This document shows positions 6,818-57,592 of a stretch of 57,592 nt of DNA, one piece after another (the first letter of the stretch is position 1; each line of letters starts with the position of its first letter). A program made the translations under genes and the position numbers. The stretch spans positions 1 through 57,592 of the forward strand of contig JAUWPV010000009.1 in the NCBI GenBank assembly GCA_030611385.1, in the 5' to 3' direction. The notes below the pieces were generated by a model that saw nothing but the letters and a program-made list of their open reading frames with translations, had not been told where the DNA came from and searched no databases. The stretch is from Bacillota bacterium (GTDB lineage Bacteria > Bacillota > Dethiobacteria > DTU022).

Positions 6818-6846
6818 TATGTTAAGCACAATGTAATAAATGAAAA

Positions 6847-6876
6847 AGTGGGGCCCGATTGGGCCTCACTTTTTTT
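6847..6876 (+). terminator. Terminator of the LIV operon, probably bidirectional
   Basis: A 10-bp stem (AGTGGGGCCC with GGGCCTCACT, one G-T pair) has a GATT loop and is followed by seven T. On the other strand the stem is followed by CTTTTTC, so it may also stop the convergent EamA transcript. Confidence 0.88.
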
Positions 6877-6919
6877 ATACAGCATGAGTCTTTCCGCAAA
6901 CTTACCAGCTCATTGATAT

Positions 6920-7801
6920 TTAACTGCCAATCGGCGCTTCTCCAACAACTGTTTTACTGGAGTAGATGTTGCGGAGGGTCACGGCTGTCAGAACGATAGC
7001 ACCGCCAACAATAGCCCATTTGCCCGGCGCTTCTCCGATTATTAGCCATACCCAGATTGGATTAAGAAGTGGGTCTATGGTTTGGATCAAGATAGCTTCA
7101 AGAGCAGCAACATACTTTATTGCTGTTGAGTAAATTACGAAAGACAACCCTATTTGCAACACACCCAGGTAAAGCAAGACAATCCAATCAATAACAGCGG
7201 GTGCTTGCTGAAAATAAAAGGGCAGGCAGATAATCATTGTAATCAGATTACCGATCAATACGGTTTCCAGAGGCGAAGCATTTTTTTGCATGCGCATGCA
7301 GATAATAAAGTATGACATGGTAATGCCACTTCCGACAGCCATAATATTCCCCCAAAAACCGCTTAGAGATAATCTGTCGAAGAAAAAGAGGAACATGCCT
7401 CCAATTACTACAGCAATGATCGTCCAATCAAAACGTTTTACTTTTTCTTTGAGAAGCCAGGCGCCCAGCAGTGCTGTGAAAACAGGAGCGTTATACTGCA
7501 GCAAAATCGCGTTGGCTGCAGTAGTCATCTTGGTTGCCGAAACAAATAAAATCATTGTTAGCGCATAGGCTATTGCTCCGGATACCTTGGGAAAAGATAG
7601 GGTAAAATTCAGTTTGCCACGCATTACTAATAAAATAACAGCTGCGGCTATGGCGCTGCGTAAACCGGCAATGGCTAAGGGATTTAGTCCAATTAGCTTA
7701 ATGAACAATCCACTGGTGCTCCACAGGGTGGCTGAAAAAGCGATGTAGAGTAATGCTCTATTCGGATGGATTTCTTTAGCTTCAAAAATTGCTTTGAACA
7801 T
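6920..7801 (-). CDS. EamA/DMT family transporter
   Basis: A 293-residue protein with ten hydrophobic helices arranged as two five-helix EamA repeats. Typical family stretches are LWSTSGLFIKLIGLNPLAI at the start of repeat one and ILIQTIDPLLNPIWVWLIIGE near the end of repeat two, the usual position for a conserved proline-rich loop. DMT transporters export or import metabolites across the inner membrane; the substrate is unknown. I chose the ATG at 7801, preceded by GGAGG, over a longer form whose N-terminus is not family-like. It lies 77 bases downstream of the aminotransferase gene on the same strand and may be the last gene of that operon. Confidence 0.87.
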   Translation of the reverse strand: MFKAIFEAKEIHPNRALLYIAFSATLWSTSGLFIKLIGLNPLAIAGLRSAIAAAVILLVMRGKLNFTLSFPKVSGAIAYALTMILFVSATKMTTAANAILLQYNAPVFTALLGAWLLKEKVKRFDWTIIAVVIGGMFLFFFDRLSLSGFWGNIMAVGSGITMSYFIICMRMQKNASPLETVLIGNLITMIICLPFYFQQAPAVIDWIVLLYLGVLQIGLSFVIYSTAIKYVAALEAILIQTIDPLLNPIWVWLIIGEAPGKWAIVGGAIVLTAVTLRNIYSSKTVVGEAPIGS

Positions 7802-28562: not shown

Positions 28563-28750
28563 GCTGAAAAAGCTGTGAAAAATTAGCCGGCACCTCTCGT
28601 TAAGAGAGGGAAGGTTTAAAAATAAATTGAATTGAATTACAAATATTACAATATGGATCTGAGTTAAGGATGTGGTGCTCATTAAACAAAAAAGATTTAT
28701 TGTTTCAGAAAGCATAGTGTAAAACTGAAATAGGAACCGCAATAAAACGA

Positions 28751-28827
28751 AAAAGGCAAACCTGCCGTGAGACAGGGACGCAAAGCTAAAGGGCCTTCAT
28801 TTTGCAAGGCAGCCTGGCCGCCGGAAA
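28751..28827 (+). ncRNA. Cyclic di-GMP-I riboswitch (GEMM) upstream of the TasA-like gene
   Basis: It carries the class I core GGCAAACC, a GNRA loop in P2 (GTGA), GGGACGCAAAGC, then GGGCC and the 3' part GGCAGCCTGGCCGCC. The G just before CAAACC, equivalent to G20 of Vc2, is kept, so c-di-GMP rather than cGAMP is the expected ligand. The ribosome binding site GGAGGG of the next gene lies 15 bases beyond. No U-rich terminator is visible, so control may be at translation. Confidence 0.93.
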
Positions 28828-31374: not shown

Positions 31375-33381
31375 TTGTATTTGTTGCTTGTTGAAAACAA
31401 CTTCATATCTTCACGTGAAATTAAAGGCTTATTGGACAAGAACAGCATCAAGTGTGAAATTGTTAACTGTTCATCCAGTGAAGCCTTGTCGGTTGTTGCT
31501 GAAAAGCTATCGCCGGATATTGTGATAATTGATTTTGATTTCTTTATCGACGATTCAGCGGAAATTGTAAGAAAGCTTCGCAATTATAGTCCGAAGGCGT
31601 ATATTCTGGCCTTTATTGATCCCGATCACTACGAAAAACTGCATCTGGCTATAGAACTGGGCATCGATGATTATCTGGTTAAACCACTACAGCGTGATGA
31701 TGTTATGCTCAGAATTAAAATGGGCTTACAGCGTAAAAACGTTCAATTTACGCAAATTGATGCAATGGATACGCCTGTTGATGCCGATATACAGGCTGAC
31801 GAACAAAGTAAAAAGCTTATTCTCGATAGTAACGATACTTTTGGGCAGCAGTATAAGACGGTTGAAAAGTCGTTTTTTACTGCACAAGAGGTTGAAAATA
31901 AAATTGAGCAGCTGTCGGAGTCTGAGAATAAAATTGAGCAGCTGTCGGAGGAAGAGGATGGCGGTTTTGAGGTAGTTACTGAGATCCCGGACATGTTCCC
32001 TCAGGAAGGGCCATTGCTTGAGCAAGCAGTTTCAGAGGAAACAGTTGAAAAAGAAATAATTGGTGAGTTTGATAATGATAGTTATGAAGATGAGCTATTT
32101 TCTATTCAACCTGAATTGCAACAGGATCAATTTGCTATTGGCGAACTATGGAATGAGCCTGAGTATAGTGATGCAGAATTACCTGTTAATGATAAAGAGC
32201 AAGCCGATTTGTCCCGAGGTGAAACGGATAGTTTAAGCGATCACAATCAGGATTATGATGGTGATTCACAGTATTTTGATGAACTGTTTAGAACGCGATC
32301 TGATTCGGAACCAGCTGATATTGCCATTGAAATCGAAGAGCCGATCTTCTCTAAAACCGGATTGCCCGATCAACAAGCGAAAAGTAAAATCGGATTAACC
32401 GAAGAAAGTTCCGGCAAACTTGATGATTCCAAGCTGTTTGGAATGAGCCGGAAAGAAAGAACTGTCGATACGAAATCTTTTGAAGAAATATTTGGTACTG
32501 CCAATGTCAAGAACAAGAGAAAAACAAAAGCATCATCCGAGCATAGAACAGAAAAAGATAAACCGGGTAAAGTAGAATATCTTTTTTCGGCTAATACGGT
32601 GTCCGCAGAAGTTAAAACCACTTCATCAGAGAGGGCTGTAAATCATGACCTATTCGGTGAAGATAGTTATGTTAAACCAACTACTCATCGGCAAGACAGG
32701 GGATATTCCCAAAAAGCCAAAGGTAGCATTTTTTTAAAAATTGCCGGGAATGTTTTAACCGCATCACTCCTGGTTTTACTGATTACCCTTTCTTTTTTCC
32801 TGATTCAGAGCAAAATAAGCGGTGGTACTCCGGCCCTGGCCGGTTATAAAATGTATGTGGTTTTAAGTGGAAGCATGAGCCCGGCTTTTAATACCGGAAG
32901 CTTGGTATTTGTCAAATCAACTGACCCGGTTAATATTACCGAAGGTGATATTATTACTTTTAGCAGCGCTAATGCCTCTGAACGTCTGACCACACATCGT
33001 GTTGTTGGGATAAACCGGGAAAACGATCTTAGCTTCATTACCCGTGGGGATGCAAATAATGTAAATGATCCAAACCCGGTAGCAGCAGAAAACATCGTCG
33101 GCAGAGTCACCGGTTCCATCCCCTATATCGGCTACCTGCTCGGTTACGCTCAAACCAGGCAGGGATTGATATTGATGGTTTTCATTCCCGGATTTTTAAT
33201 CCTTATATTTGAATTGAGAAAGTTATATGGTTATATGGTTGAAGCGAAAACTAATAAATTAACCGGTAATCCACCCGAGAAACCTTCTGTTCCGGTTTAC
33301 CAGGCGAATCGACAAAATATAGATGCCGTTTTTGGTGGATTTGATATTTCGGGTGAGCCTTATCGCCAGCGGAGTAAATAA
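31375..33381 (+). CDS. Response-regulator receiver domain fused to a SipW-type signal peptidase
   Basis: A 668-residue protein. Residues 1-122 are a CheY-like receiver: LLLVENNF, the phospho-acceptor position Asp53 (PDIVIIDFD), and the lysine in DDYLVKPL. The acidic pair is Glu7-Asn8, so metal binding may be weakened. Residues 123-445 are a long acidic, low-complexity cytoplasmic linker. Membrane helices flank an extracytoplasmic signal peptidase domain: catalytic Ser500 in LSGSMSPAF, catalytic His541 in RLTTHRVVGI (His in place of Lys marks the SipW/ER type), and the FITRGDANNVND box. The TTG start lies behind AGGGGG and matches the ATG of the paralogue at 36889. It would process the SipW-type substrates encoded upstream. 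Confidence 0.88.
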   Translation: MYLLLVENNFISSREIKGLLDKNSIKCEIVNCSSSEALSVVAEKLSPDIVIIDFDFFIDDSAEIVRKLRNYSPKAYILAFIDPDHYEKLHLAIELGIDDYLVKPLQRDDVMLRIKMGLQRKNVQFTQIDAMDTPVDADIQADEQSKKLILDSNDTFGQQYKTVEKSFFTAQEVENKIEQLSESENKIEQLSEEEDGGFEVVTEIPDMFPQEGPLLEQAVSEETVEKEIIGEFDNDSYEDELFSIQPELQQDQFAIGELWNEPEYSDAELPVNDKEQADLSRGETDSLSDHNQDYDGDSQYFDELFRTRSDSEPADIAIEIEEPIFSKTGLPDQQAKSKIGLTEESSGKLDDSKLFGMSRKERTVDTKSFEEIFGTANVKNKRKTKASSEHRTEKDKPGKVEYLFSANTVSAEVKTTSSERAVNHDLFGEDSYVKPTTHRQDRGYSQKAKGSIFLKIAGNVLTASLLVLLITLSFFLIQSKISGGTPALAGYKMYVVLSGSMSPAFNTGSLVFVKSTDPVNITEGDIITFSSANASERLTTHRVVGINRENDLSFITRGDANNVNDPNPVAAENIVGRVTGSIPYIGYLLGYAQTRQGLILMVFIPGFLILIFELRKLYGYMVEAKTNKLTGNPPEKPSVPVYQANRQNIDAVFGGFDISGEPYRQRSK

Positions 33382-35305: not shown

Positions 35306-35395
35306 GACCGACAAAGGCAAACCTGTTGAAAGACAGGGGCGCAATGCTAAGGGTCTAAGGCTCTGAAAAGAGCTACGATAGCCTGGCTGCCGAAA
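35306..35395 (+). ncRNA. Cyclic di-GMP-I riboswitch upstream of the transglutaminase-like gene
   Basis: The class I core is clear: AAAGGCAAACC, a GAAA loop in P2, GGGGCGCAATGC, and GATAGCCTGGCTGCCGAAA at the 3' end. The 5' strand GACCGACAAAG (35306-35316) is exactly complementary to CTTTGTCGGTC (35415-35425) in the expression platform, so the aptamer and platform can compete. Confidence 0.92.
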
Positions 35396-36854: not shown

Positions 36855-36888
36855 TACAGAAAGTATATTGTTATTGGGAGGGCTACCA

Positions 36889-38604
36889 ATGTATCTTTTA
36901 TTAGTTGATCAAGATTTTGTTTCGTCCACAAATATTCAGGAAATGGTCAGGAAGTCTCATGATAATACTGATATAGTGCAGTGTTACTCAACGGATGCCC
37001 TACTAAATATTGCCGAAAAACTCTCTCCCGATATAATCGTTACTGATTTTGATTTGATTGAGGGCGACTATATCGAATATTTTAGAACTCTTCGCAGTCA
37101 ATGTGCTATGGCTCACCTATTGGTCCTCATCAACCCCGATAATTTCGAGAACCTTAATGTACTGATTGAACAAGATGGAATCGATGCATATATGGTAAAA
37201 CCAATAAACCATGATGATTTCCTGGCCCGTATTCATATTACCACCAGAAAAAAAGGGTCAGTCGGGCAAAAAAAGATTGAACCGCCAATCCATAAGGAAA
37301 CAGCAAGCATAAGAACCTCATTTGATTCGATCGAAATTGAGGAGACTGGTGAAGAAACCTTTCACGGAGAACAGCTCGCGGATGAAGCTCTTTTTGGTAC
37401 AAAATTGGAATCTACTCATGGAATACCAGATTCAGGAGAAGAAAAAGTTTATGAAGGTATTTCTGAGACAGAAAATGGTTTTACCAGTAATTTTGACGAT
37501 GAGTCTGATGAGCCCGATGATCGTCAAAATAAACCTGTTAATGATGGCATCAAGTCATTCGAAGATATATTAAACGGCAAAAAAGAAGAGTTCTCCACGT
37601 GGGATTTACAGCCAAATGATTACTCTGATCGTAAGACAGAATCAAATCCGGCTGTCGTGAGACCGGCAGAAGAATTCCTCAGTGAATTTGCACCGCGCGA
37701 CAGTTCAGACCATGCTACAGATTCGGCGGTAACTGACGATCAATACTTTGATCAAATATTTCATGATAAACGTGATAATGTAGAGAAAACTGAACCAACA
37801 GGATCTCCGCGATCCGGTCAGGAAAGAACCGATTACAGTAAGCAATCTTACACGGCTCCTCTAACTAACCGCCAGGAACAGAGGCAGCATTTCTCTTCGA
37901 TTCAAGGAGAGGATCAGGAATTTATGTTTGAAGAAAACGAATGGCGAGATGACTATTACAACCGGGAACAAACAGATGACTATACCGGGTATGGCGATAA
38001 AAATGTATTAAGGGGCCGGCGGGAGGGAAAGCAGAAACCAGACGGTAGTGGATTCGCCAGGTTTTTCTCGGTAATCGGCAATATTATTTTTGGACTGCTG
38101 CTCCTGATGATGGCTGTAATTTCTTTTTTCCTGATTCAGGGCAAAGTGCTAGAAAGCGTTCCACAGGTGGCTGGTTACCAGGTACATATTCATATGAATG
38201 GAAACATGAATCCGGAATTTGCCAGTGGCAGTCTGACTTTTGTACGTGAGATTGAACCAGAGCAGATTGCAGCGGGCGATATCATTACTTTTCACAGCCA
38301 GACTGATTCAGATTTAATATTTACCAGCCGTGTTATTGGAATCGATCGGGAAGATGGGCAAAGGTTTCTAACAAGAGGTGACGCCAATAGCTTTAATGAC
38401 TCCACTCCGGTGCTTGCCGTAAATATAATTGGTAGAGTAACCGGTTCATTGCCCTATGCCGGATATGTAATGGATTATGCTCAGACCCGTCAGGGCTTGA
38501 TTGTGCTTATCTTTGTTCCCGGCATCTTAATCATTGTTTTTCAACTGGTTAAAATCATTAAAAATATTTCCAGAGGTGGTCAGCGCAGGAGGCGGGAAAC
38601 GTAA
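36889..38604 (+). CDS. Receiver domain fused to a catalytically dead SipW-type signal peptidase
   Basis: A 571-residue paralogue of the protein at 31375. Residues 1-122 are a receiver (LLLVDQDF, Asp53 in PDIIVTDFD, lysine in DAYMVKPI). An acidic linker of about 280 residues follows, then two helices flanking the peptidase-like domain. The catalytic serine position reads HMNGNMNPEF, so Ser is Asn439, and the histidine position reads IFTSRVIGI, so His is Ser480. The LTRGDANSFND box is kept. It is therefore a pseudoenzyme that may bind but not cut, perhaps a regulator of the active paralogue. The linker repeats YFDQIF and FEDIL motifs seen in the other protein. The ATG at 36889 has GGGAGGG upstream. 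Confidence 0.86.
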   Translation: MYLLLVDQDFVSSTNIQEMVRKSHDNTDIVQCYSTDALLNIAEKLSPDIIVTDFDLIEGDYIEYFRTLRSQCAMAHLLVLINPDNFENLNVLIEQDGIDAYMVKPINHDDFLARIHITTRKKGSVGQKKIEPPIHKETASIRTSFDSIEIEETGEETFHGEQLADEALFGTKLESTHGIPDSGEEKVYEGISETENGFTSNFDDESDEPDDRQNKPVNDGIKSFEDILNGKKEEFSTWDLQPNDYSDRKTESNPAVVRPAEEFLSEFAPRDSSDHATDSAVTDDQYFDQIFHDKRDNVEKTEPTGSPRSGQERTDYSKQSYTAPLTNRQEQRQHFSSIQGEDQEFMFEENEWRDDYYNREQTDDYTGYGDKNVLRGRREGKQKPDGSGFARFFSVIGNIIFGLLLLMMAVISFFLIQGKVLESVPQVAGYQVHIHMNGNMNPEFASGSLTFVREIEPEQIAAGDIITFHSQTDSDLIFTSRVIGIDREDGQRFLTRGDANSFNDSTPVLAVNIIGRVTGSLPYAGYVMDYAQTRQGLIVLIFVPGILIIVFQLVKIIKNISRGGQRRRRET

Positions 38605-46603: not shown

Positions 46604-46637
46604 ACATAAATACAAGAATATTTTAAGGCTTGGTCGA

Positions 46638-46722
46638 TTAAAGGCAAACTTTCCGAAAGGAAGAGACGCAAAGCTATGGGTTTGTAGCCCGTATAGGGGT
46701 ATGATTGCCAGGTTGCCGAAAC
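46638..46722 (+). ncRNA. Cyclic di-GMP-I riboswitch upstream of the pilus operon
   Basis: The class I core is present: AAAGGCAAACT, GAAA loop, GAGACGCAAAGC, ATGGGTTTGTAGCCCG and GATTGCCAGGTTGCCGAAA. The G before CAAAC is kept, so c-di-GMP is the expected ligand. It would set expression of the pilus operon by c-di-GMP. I could not identify the platform; no clear terminator follows. Confidence 0.93.
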
Positions 46723-46771
46723 AGGTACTTTCTGTTTGAAAATATGTTCATTGATTGCGGGGTGTTGGTCG

Positions 46772-47341
46772 GTGAATAGGGATAAAGATGATCCGGGTAA
46801 GGCACTGGATTTTAAAACGCTGCAAATATTTAAAAATAAGCGATTCTTGATCATTGTCGGCGCGATTCTGCTTTTAGCTGTCGCCGGGGGAATCTATAGC
46901 ATTATTGTCTTTGCGGATCGCACAGCTTCGGAATCGAGTATCGCCGAACCGGATGCGACCGGCTTGGCACCAGGTGATTCCGACGCTGCTGATCTGGTTG
47001 AAGTACTTCCGCAGCAGCGACGTGATAATGAAGATAGTGAAGAACAAACCTGGACCACGTTTGATCCGATGACAGATCCTTTTGCTGAACCGATGAAACT
47101 GACCGGTGTAGTGATCGGCGGACGTGGCGGTGCCATGGCAATCATCGAATCGGGCGGCAGTTCTTATATCGTTGCTGTGGGAGACTATGTTGATGATTTA
47201 TGGGCAGTCTATCAGATCACACGAGGCATGGTAGTATTACGCACCCATAATCAGGAGGTTAGCCTCTATCTGGATCAACCGCCGGTAACCAGATCACTGG
47301 ACAGTAACTCAGATGAGAATGATCAGGAGGAGGGTGCGTAA
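46772..47341 (+). CDS. Pilus assembly protein, PilP-like
   Basis: A protein of about 189 residues. A single helix (near residues 27-49) and an acidic spacer are followed by a beta-domain of about 70 residues with LTGVVIGGRGGAMAIIESGG and a segment with the PilP/GspC-like pattern. It may link the PilNO complex with the secretin N-domain protein encoded next. The GTG at 46772 behind GGGGTG is the best start; TTG at 46736 or 46751 are alternatives. Identification rests on the fold-like pattern and the context. Confidence 0.62.
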   Translation: MNRDKDDPGKALDFKTLQIFKNKRFLIIVGAILLLAVAGGIYSIIVFADRTASESSIAEPDATGLAPGDSDAADLVEVLPQQRRDNEDSEEQTWTTFDPMTDPFAEPMKLTGVVIGGRGGAMAIIESGGSSYIVAVGDYVDDLWAVYQITRGMVVLRTHNQEVSLYLDQPPVTRSLDSNSDENDQEEGA

Positions 47342-48808
47342 TTGAGAAGAAAACGCAGCAAGAGCGCTGAATTCACAATCAATCGGTGCTTATTATTCGG
47401 AACGATTGGTTTGTTGGCCCTTGCCCTTGTCACTGTTAACTGCACCCTGAACCTTGACGATATTTCGATTATGGATATTCCAGCTGCCGAATCTGAGGAT
47501 AGCGGATTAATTGACGCTGTTGGCTTAGTTATGGACGAAACGCAAATTAATCCGCTGCCGCTTGCTGATGGATCGGCGTTTATGTCCGGTGATCTATGGG
47601 CCGATATTACCGATACAATTACAACCCCACAACCGGCCCATACCAGCCCTACCAACATTTCGCTTGATGTCAGTGACGCCAATCTGCTCGATATCCTATC
47701 TCTCCTTGCCTACAAGCTTGATGTTAATATAATATTCTTAGGAGTGCCTACCGCGGTAACCTTGAAAACCGAAAGTCTTTCTCCGAGCACTACCTTCCAG
47801 CTTGTCTTACAGAAAGAAGGGCTCGATTACCTGGTCGTCGGCCGCAATTACATTGTTGCTGAAAGGGGGCGGCTCTACGGAAGCTTTGATAACCGTATGC
47901 TGCTGACCCGCTACAGCCTTTTCTATGTATCGGCCAGCGCTATGCAGGGTTATATTTCCGAGCTCGGCGTACCGGTGCAGAGCCTTACTGTCGACCCAAA
48001 CCAGCAGGCTATCTGGATGCAGGGCACGCCAATGACCCTCGGTAAAGCCCGGGAATTGATTAATTCGCTCGATATCATGGAGAATGCCGCTTTTGCCGAA
48101 GGGGGTGCCCGTAAGATTAGAATGCCGGTAGCTACCGCAACCGGTTCGCGGGCCGAAGAAGAACTGGAAGCATTAATCGATCTACTGAGCATCCTGCTAG
48201 ATGGCTTCCGCGATGGGCGGACTGAAATGGGTTGGGTTACCTGGGATCACCCCGATCCGATCCCGTACATTTACATGGATTGGGAAAACCCGATCGTCAA
48301 GCCTTATGATATTATGATGAAAATTACCCGTGATTTCGCCAATGATTACAACAGCCAGATTCGCTACCTGATCGCCGAAGGAACACCCGATAATATTGAA
48401 CTGGTCAACCAAATGATTGCGGCGATTGCCGGCACTCCCAGTTCACCATTTTCTTTCCCGGGTGAGCCCGAAACAAATGAGACCGTGCAGTGGATCCCCA
48501 GTGTACCGCAATCGACTAACCTCCCGGTCTATTCGGTTACGCTAAAAGCTGTTCCCGCCGAAGGCGGAATTTTAAGCGGTAACGGTGCATACTCACAGGG
48601 TTTGAGTGTCACAATCTCCGTTTCGCCGACTGAAGGATATGACTTTGTGCGCTGGATCGAAAATGGATTTGAAATATCCACCGATAAGACATATATTTTT
48701 CCAATCTATGCTAACCGGAGCCTTGAAGCGGTTTTTATAAAAAACAATTTAAACAGTGATCAAGTCAATAATAGTGACGATGCTACCGCTGATCTGGAAT
48801 CAGAATAG
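47342..48808 (+). CDS. Secretin N-domain protein lacking the pore domain
   Basis: A 488-residue protein with an N-terminal helix (residues 16-34). Residues 105-180 form a secretin N0/STN domain (ISLDVSDANLLDILSLLAYK, then VTLKTESLS). Residues 188-250 are an N1-like domain (SASAMQGYISELGVPVQSLT and IWMQGTPMTLGKARELI). No secretin beta-barrel follows. The C-terminal part holds an InlB B-repeat-like domain (VPAEGGILSGNGAYSQG, then EGYDFVRWIENG). This fits a pilus alignment factor in a cell without outer membrane. It directly follows the PilP-like gene. Confidence 0.72.
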   Translation: MRRKRSKSAEFTINRCLLFGTIGLLALALVTVNCTLNLDDISIMDIPAAESEDSGLIDAVGLVMDETQINPLPLADGSAFMSGDLWADITDTITTPQPAHTSPTNISLDVSDANLLDILSLLAYKLDVNIIFLGVPTAVTLKTESLSPSTTFQLVLQKEGLDYLVVGRNYIVAERGRLYGSFDNRMLLTRYSLFYVSASAMQGYISELGVPVQSLTVDPNQQAIWMQGTPMTLGKARELINSLDIMENAAFAEGGARKIRMPVATATGSRAEEELEALIDLLSILLDGFRDGRTEMGWVTWDHPDPIPYIYMDWENPIVKPYDIMMKITRDFANDYNSQIRYLIAEGTPDNIELVNQMIAAIAGTPSSPFSFPGEPETNETVQWIPSVPQSTNLPVYSVTLKAVPAEGGILSGNGAYSQGLSVTISVSPTEGYDFVRWIENGFEISTDKTYIFPIYANRSLEAVFIKNNLNSDQVNNSDDATADLESE

Positions 48809-48831
48809 AGTGATGTAGGGAAGGGAAAAAA

Positions 48832-49929
48832 ATGAGCACAGATAATAAATATCCACTGAGTATAGATCAGATTTTAAGGATGGCGGTTGAGCAGGGCGCA
48901 TCGGATGTGCATATAGTACCTTTTGAGCCGCCAATATTTAGAATTAACCGTGATATGGTCAAACTCGATTTTCCGGTGCTCCGTCCGGAAAATGTTAAGG
49001 AATTATTGATCCAGGTTATCAAGCCGTACCAGGGTGAAATGCTAAAAAAAGATCTGGAACTGGATTTTTCGTATTCGATACCGTCGGTAGCCCGTTTTCG
49101 TGGTAACGTTATGTTCCAGCGCGGCACACCTACTCTGGCTATGCGCATTGTGCCCTTCAAGGTGCCGAATATTGACGACCTCGGAGTACTTCCCGGGGTC
49201 CGGGATCTTTGTTTCCTGCCCAGGGGACTGGTTTTGGTTACCGGTCCTACGGGAAGCGGTAAGTCGACTACCCTGGCGGCAATGATTGATATAATCAACA
49301 GTGAACGTAATTTAAATATTGTCACTGTTGAAGATCCGATTGAGTTTTTGCATTCACATAAGCAGTCGTCGATTAAACAGCGAGAAGTCGGTATTGACAC
49401 CCACTCCTTTGCAAATGCCCTGCGCCATGTTTTACGGCACGATCCCGATGTTATTTTAATTGGAGAGATGCGCGACCTGGAAAGTATCGGCATCGCACTG
49501 ACTGCTGCAGAAACCGGACACATTGTTTTTTCAACTCTTCATACGCAAACCGCACCTTTGACGATTAACCGGATCATCGATGCCTTTGCCGATCATCAAC
49601 GTGACCAGGTACGCCAACAGCTGGCCGGATCACTGCAGGCAGTTCTTTCACAACAGTTAATCCCAAATGTTCAGGGTGACGGACGTGTATTGGCTATGGA
49701 GTTTCTGAAAACTAACACTGCTGTGCGCACCCTGATTCGCGAGGGGAAAGAGCACCAACTTTATTCGGTTATGCAGGCCAACCAGGCTAGCGGTATGAGG
49801 ACAATGGATCAATCGCTGGCGGAACTGTGCCTGGCAGGCAAGATAAACCGAAACGAAGCCTTGGAGAAATGTATAGATACGATAGAAATGGAAAGATTGC
49901 TGCAGAGCCATCCTTTCACCGGTACATAG
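48832..49929 (+). CDS. pilT: Type IV pilus retraction ATPase PilT (first copy)
   Basis: A 365-residue hexameric ATPase. It has Walker A GPTGSGKSTT, the Walker B and Asp box in DPDVILIGEMRDLESI, the His box in STLHTQTA, and the C-terminal TAVRTLIREGK, which matches the AIRNLIRE motif needed for retraction. It drives pilus disassembly. It is a PilT, not a PilB, judging by the missing N-terminal MshEN domain. Confidence 0.93.
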   Translation: MSTDNKYPLSIDQILRMAVEQGASDVHIVPFEPPIFRINRDMVKLDFPVLRPENVKELLIQVIKPYQGEMLKKDLELDFSYSIPSVARFRGNVMFQRGTPTLAMRIVPFKVPNIDDLGVLPGVRDLCFLPRGLVLVTGPTGSGKSTTLAAMIDIINSERNLNIVTVEDPIEFLHSHKQSSIKQREVGIDTHSFANALRHVLRHDPDVILIGEMRDLESIGIALTAAETGHIVFSTLHTQTAPLTINRIIDAFADHQRDQVRQQLAGSLQAVLSQQLIPNVQGDGRVLAMEFLKTNTAVRTLIREGKEHQLYSVMQANQASGMRTMDQSLAELCLAGKINRNEALEKCIDTIEMERLLQSHPFTGT

Positions 49930-49959
49930 CAGCAGGCCATTGCAGGGAGATGAGTCTTA

Positions 49960-51162
49960 ATGGGTTCTTACTACTACGAAGCAATCAAAAGAACAGGTGA
50001 GACGGTAAAAGGTAAGTTTGAAGCCGATAACGAATCAAGAGTTGTTGAGCGGTTGCGCGGTATGGGCTTGATGGCTGTGAATATTAAGGAAATTAAACAG
50101 TCTTCGTTGGACAGCTTGTTTAAACGTGGCAAGAAAGTGAAACTGGGAGACCTGAGCCTGTTTAGCCGTCAGATGGCGGCGATGTTAAATTCAGGCATTC
50201 CGCTTACCAGGGCTCTTTATACTCTGAGTAGGCAGGTTACGAACAAGACTTTGGGAGGAGCTTTAACTCAGGTCGCGTTGAATGTTGAAAGCGGAGTCAG
50301 TTTCAGTGAAGCGCTGAAAGGTTATCCACTAATATTTTCACCAATTTATTTAAACATGGTTGAAGCCGGTGAAACGGGAGGAACTTTAGAGAAAACCTTA
50401 ACTAGGCTTTCGTTACAATTGCAAAAAGATAAAGAACTACGGGACAGTATTCATTCTGCTACTTTCTATCCGATTGCCGTTTTCGGTTTTGCGTTGGTCA
50501 TTTTTTTTGCGATGCTCTTTTTTTTGGTACCGATCTTCGTCGGGTTTTTTCCGGCAGGTGCTGTGCTGCCTTTACCTACACGGATTATTATCGGAGCATC
50601 TGATCTTCTCAAAGGTTATTGGTATATTTTGTTTCCCATTTTCATTCTTATTTTTATTGGACTGCGGTCATATGCCAAAAGTACCGAGGGTAAAAAGAGA
50701 CTTGATCGCCTCAAGCTTAAGTTGCCTGTTTTTGGTCCGCTGATCCAAAAAACGGTAGTAGCCAGTTTCGCACGAACTTTTTCTACGCTGACTTCAACGG
50801 GCATTCCGATTGTACAGGCACTTGGTATTTCCGGAAAAGCTTCCGGGAATACGGTGATCATTGAAGCGACTTACAATGCCAGTTTGAAAATTCAGGAAGG
50901 CAGCAACGTATCATCACCACTGGTGGAAAGCGGCGTTTTCCCGCCGATGGTTACGCACATGATCTCTGTTGGTGAAGAAACCGGTGCAATGTCTGAGATG
51001 CTTGATAAGATAGCCGAGTTTTATGAAGAAGAGGTTACCACAATGACCAAGGGCTTAACTGCCCTGATTGAACCGCTGATGTTGATTGTTGTCGGCATTC
51101 TTGTTGGCGGCATACTGATATCCCTTTATCTCCCAATCTTTACTGTTATCACACAGATCTAA
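49960..51162 (+). CDS. pilC: Type IV pilus inner-membrane platform protein PilC
   Basis: A 400-residue protein with two GspF domains. It starts SYYYEAIKRTGETVKGK, and each half has a motif of the type LSLFSRQMAAMLNSGIPLTR and SFARTFSTLTSTGIPIVQAL. Three membrane helices are visible, at about residues 170-195, 225-245 and 370-395. It links the PilB and PilT motors to the pilus. It is 30 bases after pilT. Confidence 0.93.
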   Translation: MGSYYYEAIKRTGETVKGKFEADNESRVVERLRGMGLMAVNIKEIKQSSLDSLFKRGKKVKLGDLSLFSRQMAAMLNSGIPLTRALYTLSRQVTNKTLGGALTQVALNVESGVSFSEALKGYPLIFSPIYLNMVEAGETGGTLEKTLTRLSLQLQKDKELRDSIHSATFYPIAVFGFALVIFFAMLFFLVPIFVGFFPAGAVLPLPTRIIIGASDLLKGYWYILFPIFILIFIGLRSYAKSTEGKKRLDRLKLKLPVFGPLIQKTVVASFARTFSTLTSTGIPIVQALGISGKASGNTVIIEATYNASLKIQEGSNVSSPLVESGVFPPMVTHMISVGEETGAMSEMLDKIAEFYEEEVTTMTKGLTALIEPLMLIVVGILVGGILISLYLPIFTVITQI

Positions 51163-51179
51163 AAAGGGGTTGTCCATAG

Positions 51180-52199
51180 ATGGCATCAGGCATGCAAAAC
51201 CGGGCTATTGGACTGGAAATCGACACCGGAACCGCTCGAGTGGTAGAGCTTACCGGTAAGGTCGGTGCGCCCAATTTGGCTAATTTGGGACGCATTACGC
51301 TGCCGGAAGGTGCTGTAAACGAAGGGCTGATATTACAACCCGATCTGGTTGGTGCTGCCCTTAAAAAACTCTGGCAGAAAGCCGGTTTCAGCAAACGCGA
51401 AGTGATTCTTGGTGTCTCCAATCAGAGTGTGCTGGTACGTCATATTACTATACCGAAAATGCCAATGGCAAAAATAAAGAATGTGATTATGTATCAGGCC
51501 CAGGAGCATCTGCCGATACCCCTTGAAAGCGTGGTTCTTGACTACCTGGTTCTTGGTGAAACCGCCGTTTCCGGTAATGCTGAAATTACTTTGGATGTTA
51601 TATTGGTGGCTGCAAAAAGGGATATGCTCGAAAATTTTCTAGAAGCGCTCAAAATAGCTCAACTTGAGCCCCTTGATATTGATGTCTCCAGTATAGTTCT
51701 AATCAGCTTATTACCACAAAAGGCTATGCGCATGACCGTTGCCCTGGTTAATGTTGCGAATGGGCAAAACAGTATATTGGTTTCGGCAGAGGGGAAACCG
51801 CGTCTGGCTCGCCTTGGCTTGGTTAAAGTTAACGATTTAGCTGATAACCTGGGTTGTCCTCTTGATAAAATAAGCTATACTCAGGCTGGCGATGATAGTA
51901 GATCAGCTGAAATATTGGCCAACTGGATCGATAATTTGGCTAAGGAGATTCGCTCATCTTTAACATATTACCAGGATCTGCCCGGTTCATCCAGGGTTGA
52001 GGGAATACTGCTGAGCGGCAGGGGCGCTCTTTTTCGGGGGATTGCTGAGCAACTGGAAGAATACCTTGATCTGCCGGTCCGCAATTTTAACCCTTTGGGA
52101 ATTTACGCTCCGGCTAAACGAAGATTATTAAGGTCAGACAGTGATGCTCTGGAATTTGCGATCAGCACAGGCTTGGCCATCAGGGGTTTGGAGGGATAA
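51180..52199 (+). CDS. pilM: Type IV pilus assembly ATPase PilM
   Basis: A 339-residue actin-like protein. The start AIGLEIDTGTARVVEL carries the phosphate-binding loop, followed by an SHS2-type insertion; the conserved IPKMPMAKIKNVI lies near residue 100. It binds the cytoplasmic tail of PilN and completes the PilMNO ring. Confidence 0.9.
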   Translation: MASGMQNRAIGLEIDTGTARVVELTGKVGAPNLANLGRITLPEGAVNEGLILQPDLVGAALKKLWQKAGFSKREVILGVSNQSVLVRHITIPKMPMAKIKNVIMYQAQEHLPIPLESVVLDYLVLGETAVSGNAEITLDVILVAAKRDMLENFLEALKIAQLEPLDIDVSSIVLISLLPQKAMRMTVALVNVANGQNSILVSAEGKPRLARLGLVKVNDLADNLGCPLDKISYTQAGDDSRSAEILANWIDNLAKEIRSSLTYYQDLPGSSRVEGILLSGRGALFRGIAEQLEEYLDLPVRNFNPLGIYAPAKRRLLRSDSDALEFAISTGLAIRGLEG

Positions 52200-52787
52200 T
52201 TGTTGAAACATGTCAGTTTATTGCCTCCGGAAATAAAAATTCAACGACTAACCAGACACAAAAAGCAGAGATATTTTCTTGCGCTGATCATTGTGTTGAT
52301 AGTTGTAGTGGCTGTAAATGCATTATTTTTGATTAACTCAATTCTGGTCCGGGAGAACCTGAAATCCCTGCAATATGAAAGGTCAGTAGTAGATAACCAG
52401 GCTGCCTCTTTGCAAGAATATGAAGAACTGTATCAACTACTTAGCAGAACTGAAAACCTTGTCAACGATGCTATGGGAACAGTACCACTTTGGAGTGTGC
52501 TATTGAGTGATATCAGCCATACTTTGCCCATCGGAACCCAGTTATCAGATTTGAGGATTGACTATAGCGATCAAAGTGGCACAGTAACGATGCGCGGATG
52601 GGTCTATGATCACAGCAGCCTTGCTGGTATGCTCGATCAGCTGTTTACAATTGAACAGATGGATCAAATCCTCTGCCGGGTTTCTACGGAATCAAATTAT
52701 CAAGGCCGTGAAGTTGTCCAGTTTCTTGTTGACAGTATCCTCCTGACCGGGCCCAGCTTTTTACCTGATAACGAGAGCGGTGAATAA
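52200..52787 (+). CDS. pilN: Type IV pilus assembly protein PilN
   Basis: A 195-residue protein. The short N-terminal tail HVSLLPPEIKIQRLTRHK resembles the PilM-binding INLLP motif. One helix (residues 26-49) leads to an extracytoplasmic coiled coil and a ferredoxin-like domain. It starts with a TTG (52200 or 52203) after GGAGG. Confidence 0.87.
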   Translation: MLKHVSLLPPEIKIQRLTRHKKQRYFLALIIVLIVVVAVNALFLINSILVRENLKSLQYERSVVDNQAASLQEYEELYQLLSRTENLVNDAMGTVPLWSVLLSDISHTLPIGTQLSDLRIDYSDQSGTVTMRGWVYDHSSLAGMLDQLFTIEQMDQILCRVSTESNYQGREVVQFLVDSILLTGPSFLPDNESGE

Positions 52788-53340
52788 AGTGGCATTAAAT
52801 CTGGCACCATCACGTAAGGCACTACTGATTACTGCTCTGGCCGTAGTGGCGGTTATTGTCGGGTTAGCTCTGATCTATTTACAGGCTTATAGTTTACGCG
52901 GCTTGAACGCTGAAGTGGAAAATGAAAAAATTGCGCTGGCTCAATCAGAAGCCATTTTAATCAAAAGGTTGGAACATCAAAAAAATGCGTTAGTTTACCA
53001 GGAAAATTATGCTAAACTTAAGCTGATGATACCGGACAATCCGGAAGAAGAAGAAATCCTGCGTTATTTTGCTTATCTGGCGGAAGAATATGATCTCAGC
53101 GTTCCCGAGATACGTTTTAGAGAAAGAGTCGCTAATGAAGAGCAGGGTTATATCCGGATGCCTTTGGAGATCACCATAGAAGGGCGTTATCGTGAGCTCG
53201 TCGCGCTATTAGATCATTTGAACCGGGGAGAAAGAGCAGTTCGCATTAATACTATAGGCATAACCCTTTCCAGTGGCGAAACTGCCCAACTTCGAATAGT
53301 AGTTTCAGCCAGCGCTTTTCACGGTATAAACGTGCAATAA
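52780..53340 (+). CDS. pilO: Type IV pilus assembly protein PilO
   Basis: A 186-residue protein. One helix (residues 13-35) is followed by a coiled coil and a C-terminal ferredoxin-like domain, with EEEILRYFAYLAEEYDLS and MPLEITIEGRYRELVALL. It pairs with PilN. The GTG start overlaps the pilN stop by eight bases. The last 95 residues resemble the end of the sigma-like protein encoded at 56546, which bears on a recent domain copy. Confidence 0.87.
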   Translation: MNKVALNLAPSRKALLITALAVVAVIVGLALIYLQAYSLRGLNAEVENEKIALAQSEAILIKRLEHQKNALVYQENYAKLKLMIPDNPEEEEILRYFAYLAEEYDLSVPEIRFRERVANEEQGYIRMPLEITIEGRYRELVALLDHLNRGERAVRINTIGITLSSGETAQLRIVVSASAFHGINVQ

Positions 53341-53412
53341 GAATATATTTTACTTATGCTGTTGCCCTGAGTAAAATAGCTTGTACTGGTAGTTAAAAAA
53401 GGGAGCAGGCTA

Positions 53413-55119
53413 GTGGAAACAGCAAGAACAAATAGAGGTAGCGATAAAAGAATCGGCCATTTACTTTTTGAAAATGGTTCGATTTCACGTGAACAGCTTA
53501 AGGAAGCTCTTGATATACATGAGTCGGCCAAAAGCAACGGTGAAAAGAAATTGCTGGGGCAGACTCTGATCGAACTCGGCTTCACAACGGAAGAAAAAGT
53601 AACCCGGGCCATTGCCGCACAGGCTGGCGTTGATTATATCTCTCTTGAAGCAAGTAATATTGACAGTGCTGCCGCCTCTTTGATTGATCCAGATTCATCC
53701 AGACGCTACCGTTCGTTACCGATTGGTTTTGATAATAATCGTCTGGTTGTCGCCATGCTTGATCCCAATGATATTCTGGCAATCGATGATATACGCCTGA
53801 TTACCGGTTACGAAATTAAACCGATTTGTGTTTCCAGTAGTAACTTAAGGGCAGCAATCGACCAGTATAGCCGTGCGACCAGCGTCATGGAAGCTGAGGA
53901 AGACGAAGAACAACAACCTGTAGAACAAGAAGAAGTGCAGACCCTTTCAGTTAGCAAACCGGCTGTCCAGCTGGCCAATTTAATTTTCAATCAGGCTGCC
54001 CGTGATGGAGTCAGCGACATCCATATTGAACCGCAGGAAAAGAGCTTACGGATTCGCTTCAGAATTGATGGCGTTCTCCACGAAGTGATGCAGCCGCCCC
54101 AACGGCTGTACCTGCCACTTGTTTCAAGAATTAAGGTTATTGCCAATATGGATATTGCCAACCGACGCATACCCCAGGATGGGCGAATCACGATGAAAAT
54201 AGATCGGAAAGTGATCGATTTTAGGGTTGCTTCTCTGCCGACAGCATACGGTGAAAAGCTTACCCTGCGTTTGCTAGATCGAAGCTCCCGAGTGATCACT
54301 CTACCTGAACTGGGTTTTCCTGAATCTCAGTTAAAGTATTTCCGTAAGATGATCAACATTCCACACGGTTGTGTTCTGGTAACCGGACCTACCGGAAGTG
54401 GAAAAACAACCACTCTTTATGCCGTTTTATCTGAATTAAATCAAATTGAAAAACACATTATTACAGTCGAAGACCCAATAGAGTATCGCTTGGCTGGGAT
54501 TAACCAGGTTCAGGTTAACCAGCAGGCCGGTCTTACTTTTGCAACCGGGCTTCGTTCAATTCTGCGCAATGACCCTGATATTATTATGGTCGGTGAGATC
54601 AGGGATCGCGAAACAGCGCGCATCGCTGTTGAATCTGCGTTGACCGGTCACCTGGTTCTTTCGACCCTTCATACCAACGATGCCGCCGGTGCGATCACCC
54701 GCCTAGGCGAGATGGGTATTGAGTCATATCTTACGGCTTCATCGCTTGTTGCTGTTCTGGCCCAACGTCTGATCAGGCAGCTTTGCAAACAGTGCCGTAA
54801 AGAATATAAGATACGGCGGGAAGAACTTCTATCTGCTGTACCTGATTTTCCCGTAACTCAAAATGAATCCGAGATAACCCTTTTTAAACCAGTTGGTTGT
54901 TTGCAATGCAGCAATACCGGTTATCGGGGAAGAAAAGGTGTCTATGAGTTATTGATCGTCAGCGATAAAATAAAAAATCTAACTCTGCAGAACCGCTCTT
55001 CTGGAGAGATTGCCGAAACAGCGGTTGCCGAAGGCATGGTTACTCTGCGCCAGGATGGACTTTATAAGGTAAAGATGGGTCTGACATCCCTTGAAGAAGT
55101 CCTACGTATTTTAGCTTAG
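53413..55119 (+). CDS. pilB: Type IV pilus extension ATPase PilB with MshEN domain
   Basis: A 568-residue motor. The N-terminal MshEN domain (residues 14-150) has the tandem motif of c-di-GMP-binding MshEN proteins: RIGHLLFENGSISREQL then LLGQTLIELGFTTEEKV. The ATPase core has GPTGSGKTTTLYAV, DPDIIMVGEIRDRETA and STLHTNDA. A zinc site CKQCRKEY and CLQCSNTGYRGRKG is near residue 490. It should be stimulated by c-di-GMP directly, as known for MshE. The GTG start has GGGAG upstream. Confidence 0.93.
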   Translation: METARTNRGSDKRIGHLLFENGSISREQLKEALDIHESAKSNGEKKLLGQTLIELGFTTEEKVTRAIAAQAGVDYISLEASNIDSAAASLIDPDSSRRYRSLPIGFDNNRLVVAMLDPNDILAIDDIRLITGYEIKPICVSSSNLRAAIDQYSRATSVMEAEEDEEQQPVEQEEVQTLSVSKPAVQLANLIFNQAARDGVSDIHIEPQEKSLRIRFRIDGVLHEVMQPPQRLYLPLVSRIKVIANMDIANRRIPQDGRITMKIDRKVIDFRVASLPTAYGEKLTLRLLDRSSRVITLPELGFPESQLKYFRKMINIPHGCVLVTGPTGSGKTTTLYAVLSELNQIEKHIITVEDPIEYRLAGINQVQVNQQAGLTFATGLRSILRNDPDIIMVGEIRDRETARIAVESALTGHLVLSTLHTNDAAGAITRLGEMGIESYLTASSLVAVLAQRLIRQLCKQCRKEYKIRREELLSAVPDFPVTQNESEITLFKPVGCLQCSNTGYRGRKGVYELLIVSDKIKNLTLQNRSSGEIAETAVAEGMVTLRQDGLYKVKMGLTSLEEVLRILA

Positions 55120-55167
55120 ATCTTGAAAGCGTTAAAATGTCATGCGTAATTTGAGAGGTAATATATT

Positions 55168-56235
55168 GTGCTTAAGCAACTGTTAATAGAAGCCCTTGAA
55201 ATTAATGCTTCCGATGTTCATCTTACTGTTGGCCTTCCTCCGGTACTGAGAGTTGATGGCCATCTGGTTTACATGAAAAAATCTGCCCTCGATGAATTGC
55301 AGCTGCGCAGGTTGGCTGAAGAAATTATTGGAACCGATAGGCTGGAGCACTTGCACGGTAACGGTGAACTTGATATTTCGTACGAATACCCTTCACTTGG
55401 TTCCTTCCGAATTAACATATACCATCAGCGTGGTATGATAGGTATTGCTTTACGGATAATCAGAACAAAAATGCCTACCCTTGCGGAACTGGGTATACCT
55501 GATGCCGTGGCAACTTTAACCCGTCGTAAAAATGGCCTCATCCTGATGACTGGTCCGGCCGGTAGTGGCAAATCGACTACACTGGCGGCGATGACCGATT
55601 TGATCAATAGTGAAAAAGAGTATCATATTATTACTTTGGAAGACCCTATCGAATATATTCACCATAATAAAAAGTCTATGGTAACACAGCGGGAAATCGG
55701 ACGAGACAGCAGATCATACCCAACAGCGCTGCGGGCGGCCCTGCGTCAGGATCCCGATGTTATTTTGGTTGGAGAAATGAGGGATATTGAGACTATTTCG
55801 ATAGCGGTTACTGCAGCTGAAACAGGCCACCTGGTCATGGCTACTTTACATACGATCAACTCTGCTCAAACTGTTGAACGGATTATCAATGGTTTCCCAT
55901 CAAACCAGCAGGAACAGATTCGTATTCAACTGGCAAATTCCCTGGCTGGTGTAATTTCACAGCGGTTAATTCGTTGCAAAAACGGCAAAGGACGCATTCC
56001 GGCTGTCGAAATAATGATTTGTACACCAGCAATAAGGAGCCTGATTCGGGAAGGAAAAGTCCACCAGATCAATTCATTTATTCAGGCTGGTTCACGCTAT
56101 GGTATGCAGACAATGGATAAGCATCTGCAGAATCTACGGGAAGAGGGTCTTATATCGTCTCAGGAAGCTCTTGATTACGCAATAGATCGGGAAAGCATGC
56201 TCAAAATAATAAAACCGATGAGTGAGAATGTTTAA
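55168..56235 (+). CDS. Type IV pilus retraction ATPase PilT (second copy)
   Basis: A 355-residue paralogue of the first PilT. Walker A is GPAGSGKSTT and Walker B DPDVILVGEMRDIETI; ATLHTINS and the retraction motif PAIRSLIREGK are kept. The GTG start has GAGAGG upstream. Two PilT genes suggest separate retraction behaviours or division of labour. Confidence 0.92.
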   Translation: MLKQLLIEALEINASDVHLTVGLPPVLRVDGHLVYMKKSALDELQLRRLAEEIIGTDRLEHLHGNGELDISYEYPSLGSFRINIYHQRGMIGIALRIIRTKMPTLAELGIPDAVATLTRRKNGLILMTGPAGSGKSTTLAAMTDLINSEKEYHIITLEDPIEYIHHNKKSMVTQREIGRDSRSYPTALRAALRQDPDVILVGEMRDIETISIAVTAAETGHLVMATLHTINSAQTVERIINGFPSNQQEQIRIQLANSLAGVISQRLIRCKNGKGRIPAVEIMICTPAIRSLIREGKVHQINSFIQAGSRYGMQTMDKHLQNLREEGLISSQEALDYAIDRESMLKIIKPMSENV

Positions 56236-56310
56236 AATAATTAGTATAAAAATAAATATATTGCTTGACTATTTAGGAATATTATGAAAAAATGTATGCA
56301 GAGTGAATTT

Positions 56311-56395
56311 ATAAAAGCAAAGCCATCGAAAGGTGGTCACGCAAAGCTAAAGGGGCTAATGTGCGCGCAGCGCCACTGCCAGCCAGCTGCCGGAT
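56311..56395 (+). ncRNA. Cyclic di-GMP-I riboswitch upstream of the sigma-PilO fusion gene
   Basis: It carries AAAGCAAAGCC (one base more than the consensus GCAAACC), CCATC/GGTGG around GAAA, TCACGCAAAGC, GGGGCTAATGTGC, and AGCCAGCTGCCGG. The order and spacing match class I. A terminator follows 20 bases later, which makes it a likely transcriptional switch. Confidence 0.88.
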
Positions 56396-56415
56396 ATTGT
56401 TGAAGCATACACACA

Positions 56416-56450
56416 TACCCCACCTAAACCGGCAGGTGGGGTATTTATTT
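56416..56450 (+). terminator. Terminator in the riboswitch platform
   Basis: TACCCCACCT (56416-56425) pairs perfectly with AGGTGGGGTA (56434-56443) and is followed by TTTATTT. Its 5' arm CCCACCT could also pair with AGGTGG of the aptamer P2 stem, so the two may compete. Confidence 0.85.
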
Positions 56451-56454
56451 AGAT

Positions 56455-56540
56455 TTCCGCTCTCACTGACAGGAAGAAGGGTGAGGACCAATACAGATTA
56501 TTTCCTCTCTGCGGGAGAGGGTCAGGGTGAGGGGGGGGGC
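56455..56540 (+). repeat. REP-like element ending in a G9 tract
   Basis: CTCTCACTGAC (56460-56470) and GTCAGGGTGAG (56521-56531) are inverted copies. The inner CCTCTC/GGAGAGG hairpin and the composition recall REP/MITE-type repeats with CCCTCTCCC motifs. It ends with nine G (56531-56539), overlapping the ribosome binding site of the next gene. Confidence 0.55.
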
Positions 56541-56545
56541 GTTAA

Positions 56546-57592
56546 ATGAACCCGAAACAGGCAATAAACGAAGCACCGGACTTGGAAGCAGCCGTACAGG
56601 ATTATCTAAAAACCGGTAGTTTGGAAGCTAAACAAAATGTTGTCACAGTAGGCCAGGTAATGGTAAATTACTTTGCCGGAATCTACAGTCCTGGCAAACT
56701 CGACGAAGCTCTGAGAAAGGCTGCGAATGATGGATTTCTTCGTGCCCTGAATCTTTACGATCCTGTCCACAAGATCTTATTTACAACTTATGCAACCAAC
56801 TGTATTATCAGTGAGATAAGACAGGAACTAAGAACCAGAAAGATATTCAGCATGCCGGAATGGTTAAAACGACTCCAGAACGAAGTGATTAACGCTACAG
56901 AAGAACTGGCTCAAGACAACTGTTCGTTGCCCACCCTCGAGGTTATTGCCAAAAAACTTAACGTTGCCGAAAACGGGATCACTGAAGTGATGCAGGCTGG
57001 AAGTGTTTCACTAAAAGAGATCGATCTCAAAGCTATTAAAAGCCTGCGTCATGAAACCTTTAAACTGCCGATCGAAGATGTGATCACGATTCGGAAATCT
57101 ATGGATCGTCTTAGTAATATTCAAAAAAAAGTTTTATCTTTAATATCAGTTAATCTAAGTGAGCTGAGTCTGGCTATAGAAGAAGAAGAACAGGCTTTAT
57201 CAAAAACCCAGGCCCAACATATTCAGCTGGCTGAAAATGGTAACAGTGTTTCTGCCGAACAGGAATACCGGAACGGTTTTAAAATGAAGTATCCTGAAGA
57301 CTATTCTGAGAGCGAAGTACTACGCTATTTTGAAGTGCTATCTGATGAGTTTGGTTTACGTTTGGTAGATCTTCGTAACAGGGGAAAACCTAAACAAGAA
57401 GATAAGTCTTATATAAGCATTCCCCTGGAGATTGATCTAGAGGGACGTTACAGGGGTTTGTTGCAGCTTCTGGATTATTTGCGCAAAGGGGAAAGAGCAA
57501 TTCGCGTTGAACGGGTTCGAACAGCCCGTAATGAAAATGTGCCAGCCAGGATCAACATAAATATTATCCTGAGCGCATATTTCCGCAAAGAT
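56546..57592 (+). CDS. Sigma-70-like protein fused to a PilO C-terminal domain (partial, runs off the window)
   Basis: The frame stays open for 349 codons to the window end. Residues 30-145 match sigma-70 regions 2 and 3: GFLRALNLYDPVHKILFTTY, ATNCIISEIRQELRTRK, MPEWLKRLQNEV and LPTLEVIAKKLNV. Residues 180-225 look like a worn region 4 (MDRLSNIQKKVLSLISVNLS). From about residue 255 the protein resembles PilO at 52780: SEVLRYFEVLSDEFGLR, IPLEIDLEGRYRGLLQLLDY and KGERAIRVERV. No membrane helix is present, so the PilO-like part would be cytoplasmic. It could be a sigma factor steered by the pilus machine. ATG 56546 follows GAGGGGGGGGGC. Confidence 0.85.
   Translation, partial: MNPKQAINEAPDLEAAVQDYLKTGSLEAKQNVVTVGQVMVNYFAGIYSPGKLDEALRKAANDGFLRALNLYDPVHKILFTTYATNCIISEIRQELRTRKIFSMPEWLKRLQNEVINATEELAQDNCSLPTLEVIAKKLNVAENGITEVMQAGSVSLKEIDLKAIKSLRHETFKLPIEDVITIRKSMDRLSNIQKKVLSLISVNLSELSLAIEEEEQALSKTQAQHIQLAENGNSVSAEQEYRNGFKMKYPEDYSESEVLRYFEVLSDEFGLRLVDLRNRGKPKQEDKSYISIPLEIDLEGRYRGLLQLLDYLRKGERAIRVERVRTARNENVPARININIILSAYFRKD

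Follow-up and report, generated by a model that had tools for sequence, protein, structure and literature searches.

In the alphaproteobacterial general stress response, PhyR is a mimic in which a sigma-like domain is combined with a second domain (PMC4598750). The sigma-like part of PhyR, which comprises ECF-type sigma2 and sigma4, is no longer a sigma factor; its second domain is a receiver that is phosphorylated, and the anti-sigma in this system is NepR. Incomplete sigma-like proteins can also act with a partner and keep core binding, i.e. the split sigma factor SigO/RsoA of B. subtilis and gp55/gp33 of phage T4, in which gp33 stands in for region 4 with gp55. In WhiG-RsiG, c-di-GMP binds a protein anti-sigma; the structure 6pfv, which came up in our comparisons, we take to be WhiG-RsiG-c-di-GMP of Streptomyces. 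We know of no answer to the question of how pilin supply is matched to the type IV pilus (T4P) machine in monoderm bacteria.

Here, we analysed a stretch of 57,592 nucleotides from a Bacillota bacterium (the window, which is the whole of contig G000:C37), in which a T4P cluster is followed by a gene that joins a sigma-like half to a PilO domain (Table 1). In its logic, the fusion fits a comparison with PhyR in that a sigma-like domain is joined to a second domain; by contrast, its sigma-like part is sigma2-sigma3 of the SigB/SigF/SigG type, its second domain is PilO, and a Pfam scan of the fusion found no receiver domain. Regions 2-3 are homologous to those of SigB, SigF and SigG; however, the fusion is without the region 4 helix-turn-helix and its region 2.2 signature is eroded. 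The eroded core-binding signature also separates it from SigO/RsoA and gp55/gp33, with which it has in common that its set of sigma regions is incomplete. With type IVa PilO (2rjz), a direct relative in the same family, the fusion has the coil and the ferredoxin-like domain in common but not the N-terminal membrane helix. Finally, the locus resembles WhiG-RsiG-c-di-GMP in that c-di-GMP is coupled to a related group of sigma factors, by a protein anti-sigma there and by riboswitches here. The reading that we favour, at a probability of roughly 0.45, is that the fusion is a cytoplasmic pseudo-sigma that regulates an intact sister sigma factor and so the output of a pilin promoter.

Table 1. Positions in the window of the fusion gene, its parts, its leader and the upstream T4P cluster.
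Feature	Position	Strand	Basis or remark
c-di-GMP-I riboswitch ahead of T4P cluster	46633..46720	+	RF01051, 68.4 bits
T4P cluster upstream of fusion: PilP-like, secretin-N protein, PilT, PilC, PilM, PilN, PilO, PilB, second PilT	46736..56235	+	
pilO of same T4P cluster, relative of the C-terminal half of the fusion	52780..53340	+	profile, BLASTP and tree
Candidate sigma-A-type promoter TTGACT, 17 nt, AAAAAT with TG	56265..56293	+	consensus match only
c-di-GMP-I riboswitch aptamer, fusion leader	56306..56394	+	RF01051, 62.5 bits, gathering score 35
Intrinsic terminator after aptamer (expression platform)	56415..56444	+	
Sigma-PilO fusion gene	56546..57592	+	ATG start, 349 codons to contig end, no stop in assembly
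Sigma regions 2-3, residues 10-160	56573..57025	+	NCBIfam SigBFG, SigB/SigF structures
Region 2.2, residues 53-70, eroded D-L-x-Q-x-G core-binding signature	56702..56755	+	comparison with canonical T4P sigmas
Sigma region 4 remnant, first helix, residues 176-201, without helix-turn-helix	57071..57148	+	alignment with intact sister sigmas
PilO coil and ferredoxin-like domain, without membrane helix, residues 202-349	57149..57592	+	profile, BLASTP, structure, hydropathy

Two domains in one frame

The sigma half matched the NCBIfam SigBFG profile (TIGR02980) over residues 27-160 (E = 1.1e-15) at 57.9 bits relative to a cut-off of 234, and a profile of the fusion family matched the structures of S. 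aureus SigB (8x6g, E = 2e-16) and SigF (1l0o, E = 7e-13). Pfam alone was weak on this half, with E-values of 0.15 for region 2 and 0.0037 for region 3, both below the cut-offs. The C-terminal half was 34% identical to the PilO of the same cluster over 150 residues (BLASTP, E = 3e-26), and PF04350 scored 21.7 bits in hmmscan (cut-off 22) and 23.8 bits in a six-frame search. Moreover, the AlphaFold model of the PilO half resembled P. aeruginosa PilO (2rjz; target-normalised TM 0.59, 3.1 A); the model of the fusion, made as a single chain, was moderate overall (mean pLDDT 69.8, pTM 0.39), with block pLDDT in the PilO part mostly 81-91 from residue 251 on. These matches confirm the sigma regions 2-3 and the PilO domain that a preliminary description of the sequence had named, and they extend the latter beyond the ~95 residues given there.

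The frame of the fusion is cut by the contig end. The ends of homologues fall ~0-12 residues from this point, and the stop lies past it. In the upstream cluster, the names PilB, PilT and PilC come from sequence motifs and homology. Positions 47342-48808 of this cluster encode a protein with Secretin_N and an InlB-like repeat, in which no Pfam secretin pore domain was found; its host family is thought to be monoderm.

Distribution, origin and selection

Full-length homologues with the same junction and an uninterrupted frame were found in twelve genomes, the window included, from six genera of one Syntrophomonadaceae-type family, and were 51-62% identical to the window protein. Most of the genomes compared were MAGs. 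The named relatives are Syntrophomonadaceae or Bacillota MAGs, uncultured and mostly with soda-lake-sediment isolate names; a data set of such kind is described in PMC6146748. A scan of one collection found no fusion outside these MAGs. The same fusion in other genomes, for which the preliminary description proposed a search, was thus found, albeit in one family only.

In close pairs of fusions, dN/dS was 0.03-0.08 for the sigma half and 0.18-0.35 for the PilO half, which shows that the fusion is under purifying selection, with the sigma half as the more constrained of the two. Since the frame is cut by the contig end, one might suspect that two genes were joined by an error in sequencing or assembly, but twelve genomes, independent assemblies included, have the same junction, and dN/dS is well below 1; such an error is ruled out. 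We conclude that the sigma-PilO fusion is genuine.

In the trees of each half, all fusions formed one clade (100/100). In the sigma-half tree the sister group of this clade was the family's T4P sigmas, and in the PilO-half tree the clade lay among, or beside, the family's PilOs. Hence a single origin, in which neighbouring sigma and PilO genes of one T4P locus were duplicated and fused, is the simplest account. A foreign origin was ruled out because both halves group with genes of this family.

The fusion sits in the T4P locus in most genomes, and is apart from T4P genes in G034 and G007. Fusion carriers tested also have PilC genes, while two genomes without a PilC match are also without the fusion. 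G007, where no PilO was found, was considered as a genome without T4P; a PilC fragment at a contig end ruled this out. The usual location in the T4P locus would suit a component of the T4P machine, structural or moonlighting, that takes no part in transcription; however, the two genomes with the fusion elsewhere and the stronger constraint on the sigma half make such a component very improbable.

Losses in the sigma half

The two halves join within sigma region 4, such that the first helix is kept and the PilO coil takes the place of the helix-turn-helix; the latter is missing in all 12 fusions, whereas intact sister sigmas keep region 4 (Pfam Sigma70_r4, E = 7.6e-13). In region 2.2, none of the 12 fusions has kept the D found in 22 of 23 canonical T4P sigmas (E in the other one), and only the G007 fusion has kept the Q found in all 23, which the other 11 have lost; the glycine after this Q is A in every fusion. 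These positions correspond to D403, Q406 and G408 of sigma70, of which we take D403 and Q406 to be core-binding residues. Residues 55-70 hold six of the 13 group-specific changes (p = 1e-4). Moreover, G89 and H93 of region 2.4, which are invariant in canonical T4P sigmas, are altered in most fusions; regions 2.3-2.4 and 3 are otherwise well conserved.

We infer from these residues that core binding by the fusion has been lost. Normal sigma function is unlikely because of the changes in regions 4, 2.2 and 2.4, and rather than a working sigma factor the fusion is probably a regulator of sigma origin. The preliminary view of the fusion as a sigma factor would therefore hold for the homology of regions 2-3 and not for function. 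The conservation of regions 2.3-2.4 and 3 under strong purifying selection could instead point to an active sigma factor without region 4, which would bind core polymerase and read the -10 only, either with the PilO domain, or a partner bound to this domain, in place of region 4, as with gp33, or as part of a split sigma like SigO/RsoA; but with the D of region 2.2 lost in every fusion, the Q in all but one, and G89 and H93 changed in most, we consider an active sigma factor unlikely.

A PilO domain without its membrane helix

Maximum 19-residue hydropathy was 0.95 for the window fusion and 3.0 for the true PilO of the cluster, compared with 0.6-1.2 among fusions and 2.4-3.4 among complete PilOs. 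This agrees with the preliminary description, in which no membrane helix separates the parts. Because the PilO membrane helix is gone, the PilO domain of the fusion should be cytoplasmic.

The same description proposed that the fusion senses pilus assembly or pairs with PilN/PilM. In such a sensor, the PilO domain would bind PilN, PilM or PilO and report the assembly state to the sigma half; the ancestry that it shares with the PilO of the same locus, and the presence of PilC in the fusion carriers tested and the lack of the fusion in two PilC-less genomes, would be in line with this. However, PilN and PilO normally have their globular domains on the outer side of the membrane, where a PilO copy in the cytoplasm would not meet them. 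On steric grounds, the fusion is unlikely to touch PilN or PilO once the machine is assembled; a domain with no membrane helix could meet only nascent or unexported partners or PilM. The sensor proposal is thus unsupported, and we regard it as quite unlikely. In the pseudo-sigma that we favour, the PilO domain may be a dimerisation or docking module.

An intact sister sigma factor

In six of the nine genomes with enough downstream sequence, the next gene after the fusion encodes an intact SigB/F/G-type sigma of ~237-246 aa, at a spacing of ~20 nt in two of them (L101, L102). Where the contig reaches far enough (G002, G062), a pilin gene follows the sister sigma. In G012, the sigma-pilin pair is present and the fusion was not found. 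No sister sigma was visible beside the fusion in G034, G064 and G007, which is not proof of absence because these are draft genomes. In the window genome's own assembly, neither the sister sigma nor a major pilin was found, and the end of the window contig reappears in no other contig of that genome. Several assemblies (window, L007, L023, L027 and L104) tend to stop at the fusion/sigma pair or shortly beyond it, and do not reach the pilin. In L027 (positions 6217-6927), region 4 of the G030 sister sigma reads EKKKKKLG where relatives have EEAAKKLG, which may be a base-run error or a real change.

The PilO-less sigma is far wider in distribution than the fusion. Its gene is the one immediately downstream of pilC, and pilM-pilN, pilD or a pilin often comes next; it was found in a sister family and in other Bacillota including Acidaminobacter and Desulfoscipio, as well as in Armatimonadota, Eremiobacterota, CPR1 and Chloroflexi MAGs. 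Intact SigB/F/G-type sigmas adjacent to pilC occur at loci L044, L045, L049-L056, L058 and L196-L210. In the open-access literature we found no description of a T4P-operon sigma factor in Bacillota, and nowhere found 'PilO domain' and 'sigma factor' together. The pilC-adjacent sigmas are possibly an overlooked T4P sigma family.

With an intact sister sigma, the fusion could also be a dominant-negative inhibitor that occupies the promoter complex of the sister sigma or forms dead heterodimers with it, lowering pilin expression. The two proteins are close paralogues, their genes have a common leader type and they are probably in one operon in two genomes; but the residues for competition at core polymerase are eroded and the heterodimers only hypothetical, and we find an inhibitor of this type rather unlikely.

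A candidate pilin promoter

Upstream of pilins we found a candidate promoter, GTCTAA-N14-GGTATAAC, which reads GTCTAAA and then GGTATAAC, with a constant gap of 14 nt after GTCTAA. It is present in families f1 and f5 and in other Bacillota (L045, L052), and as GTCTCA in BWSM_10 (L049). The fusion and sigma genes have sigma-A-like boxes before their riboswitches, whereas major pilin genes are without such boxes.

The exact 14-base pattern was present in 11 of the 71 genomes of the order, once in each, compared with three for a reversed control pattern. It was found in 8 of 11 order genomes with an intact sigma and in 3 of 60 others (Fisher p = 2e-6). Because the motif was discovered in some of the same genomes, this test has some circularity for five to seven of the eight. 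In the three sigma carriers without the exact promoter, the contigs stop before any pilin. The three non-carriers with it are G034, which has the fusion and in which the promoter precedes a pilin, G033 and G023; in G023, neither a T4P sigma nor PilC was detected. Among order-level genomes with the motif, the promoter is nearly always at a pilin gene. In G033 (L160, 1929-1956) and G023 (L158, 1472-1499), the pilin-type promoter, with a c-di-GMP riboswitch-like leader after it, precedes a PilT-like gene and a secreted-protein gene, respectively.

A sample of the phylum gave a more independent test. The exact promoter was present in 4 of 298 genomes, each time directly before a pilin, and three of the four carry the sigma; sigma absences in this sample are soft because at most nine candidates per genome were scored. 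A universal motif was rejected: the order and class keep the exact motif, and most sigma carriers in more distant Bacillota are without it, for which reason we presume that it has drifted there.

In total, these observations suggest that the sister sigma is likely to recognise GTCTAA-N14-GGTATAAC and to switch on the pilin gene. The link to pilin control made in the preliminary description is upheld by the sister sigma next door and the promoter at pilin genes; the control of pilin genes that it considered for the fusion itself would pass to a separate intact protein, usually encoded by the next gene, as the likely pilin sigma.

c-di-GMP riboswitch leaders

The c-di-GMP riboswitch reported ahead of the fusion was recovered as RF01051 with 62.5 bits, and TTGAC boxes recur ahead of the riboswitch in related leaders. 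A riboswitch lies directly upstream of the fusion in 7 of 12 genomes and between fusion and sigma in four others. A terminator, GC-rich in most cases, follows the aptamer in 13 of 13 fusion and sigma riboswitch leaders (fusion 7/7, sigma 6/6). From the shared leader type and riboswitch placement, it is therefore probable that fusion and sister sigma are switched in the same sense by c-di-GMP. In these leaders, the aptamer end overlaps a possible antiterminator, with helices that vary; they are suggestive of leaders that would be OFF at high c-di-GMP, a sign that we do not claim. Pilin leaders use another platform, with UGACGAUA/UAUCGUCA long-range pairing and no clear terminator in four of five. 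In the window, a G-rich stretch, ggagagggtcagggtgagggggggggcg, lies between the terminator and the start codon of the fusion (56500-56540) and looks like a repeated extragenic element.

A proposed pseudo-sigma in pilin control

We suggest that a SigB/F/G-type sigma copy of the T4P locus was duplicated, lost the region 4 helix-turn-helix and the core-binding signature, and would have gained the PilO domain as an interaction module. The fusion could then sequester a negative partner of the sister sigma, by PhyR-like mimicry, or bind directly to the sister sigma or to the promoter complex of that sigma, and would thereby set the output of the major pilin promoter, the likely target of the sister sigma. 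The concentration of erosion in region 2.2, the adjacent intact sigma, the common leader type and the co-occurrence of sigma and promoter support this scheme. By contrast, regions 2.4 and 3 are kept such that contact with DNA or polymerase is possible, G007 keeps Q, no anti-sigma gene was noticed among the genes adjoining the fusion or the sister sigma, and G023 has the promoter with no sister sigma detected. The three draft genomes in which the fusion stands without a visible sister sigma, and the lack of this sigma in the assembly of the window genome, also speak against the scheme. We infer the regulatory role of the fusion and a partner of its PilO domain; in that role the fusion could free, block or support the sister sigma.

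More tentatively, the fusion could be a sigma mimic whose cytoplasmic PilO arm, as a sensor or interaction module, gates the T4P sigma, with c-di-GMP riboswitches at mimic, sigma and pilin and with pilin output matched to the machine; we hold this fuller scheme to be possible but doubtful. The locus suggests a novel coupling between the pilus machine and the expression of pilus genes. It offers a system open to tests: pilins would be transcribed from a sharp promoter with a sigma of their own from within the pilus operon, with c-di-GMP riboswitches on several of these genes and with a PilO-bearing sigma-derived partner. The sister sigma and promoter are testable in cultured Bacillota.

Further features of the window

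Two further c-di-GMP-I riboswitches lie in the window, one at 28746-28826 before a camelysin (M73) gene (28840) and one at 35306-35394 before a gene for a 395-aa protein (35445). Finally, positions 31375-33381 and 36868-38604 each encode an N-terminal response-regulator receiver fused to a C-terminal signal-peptidase (S26) domain; these fusions, which are odd in themselves, lie beside camelysin-like surface proteins and riboswitches.
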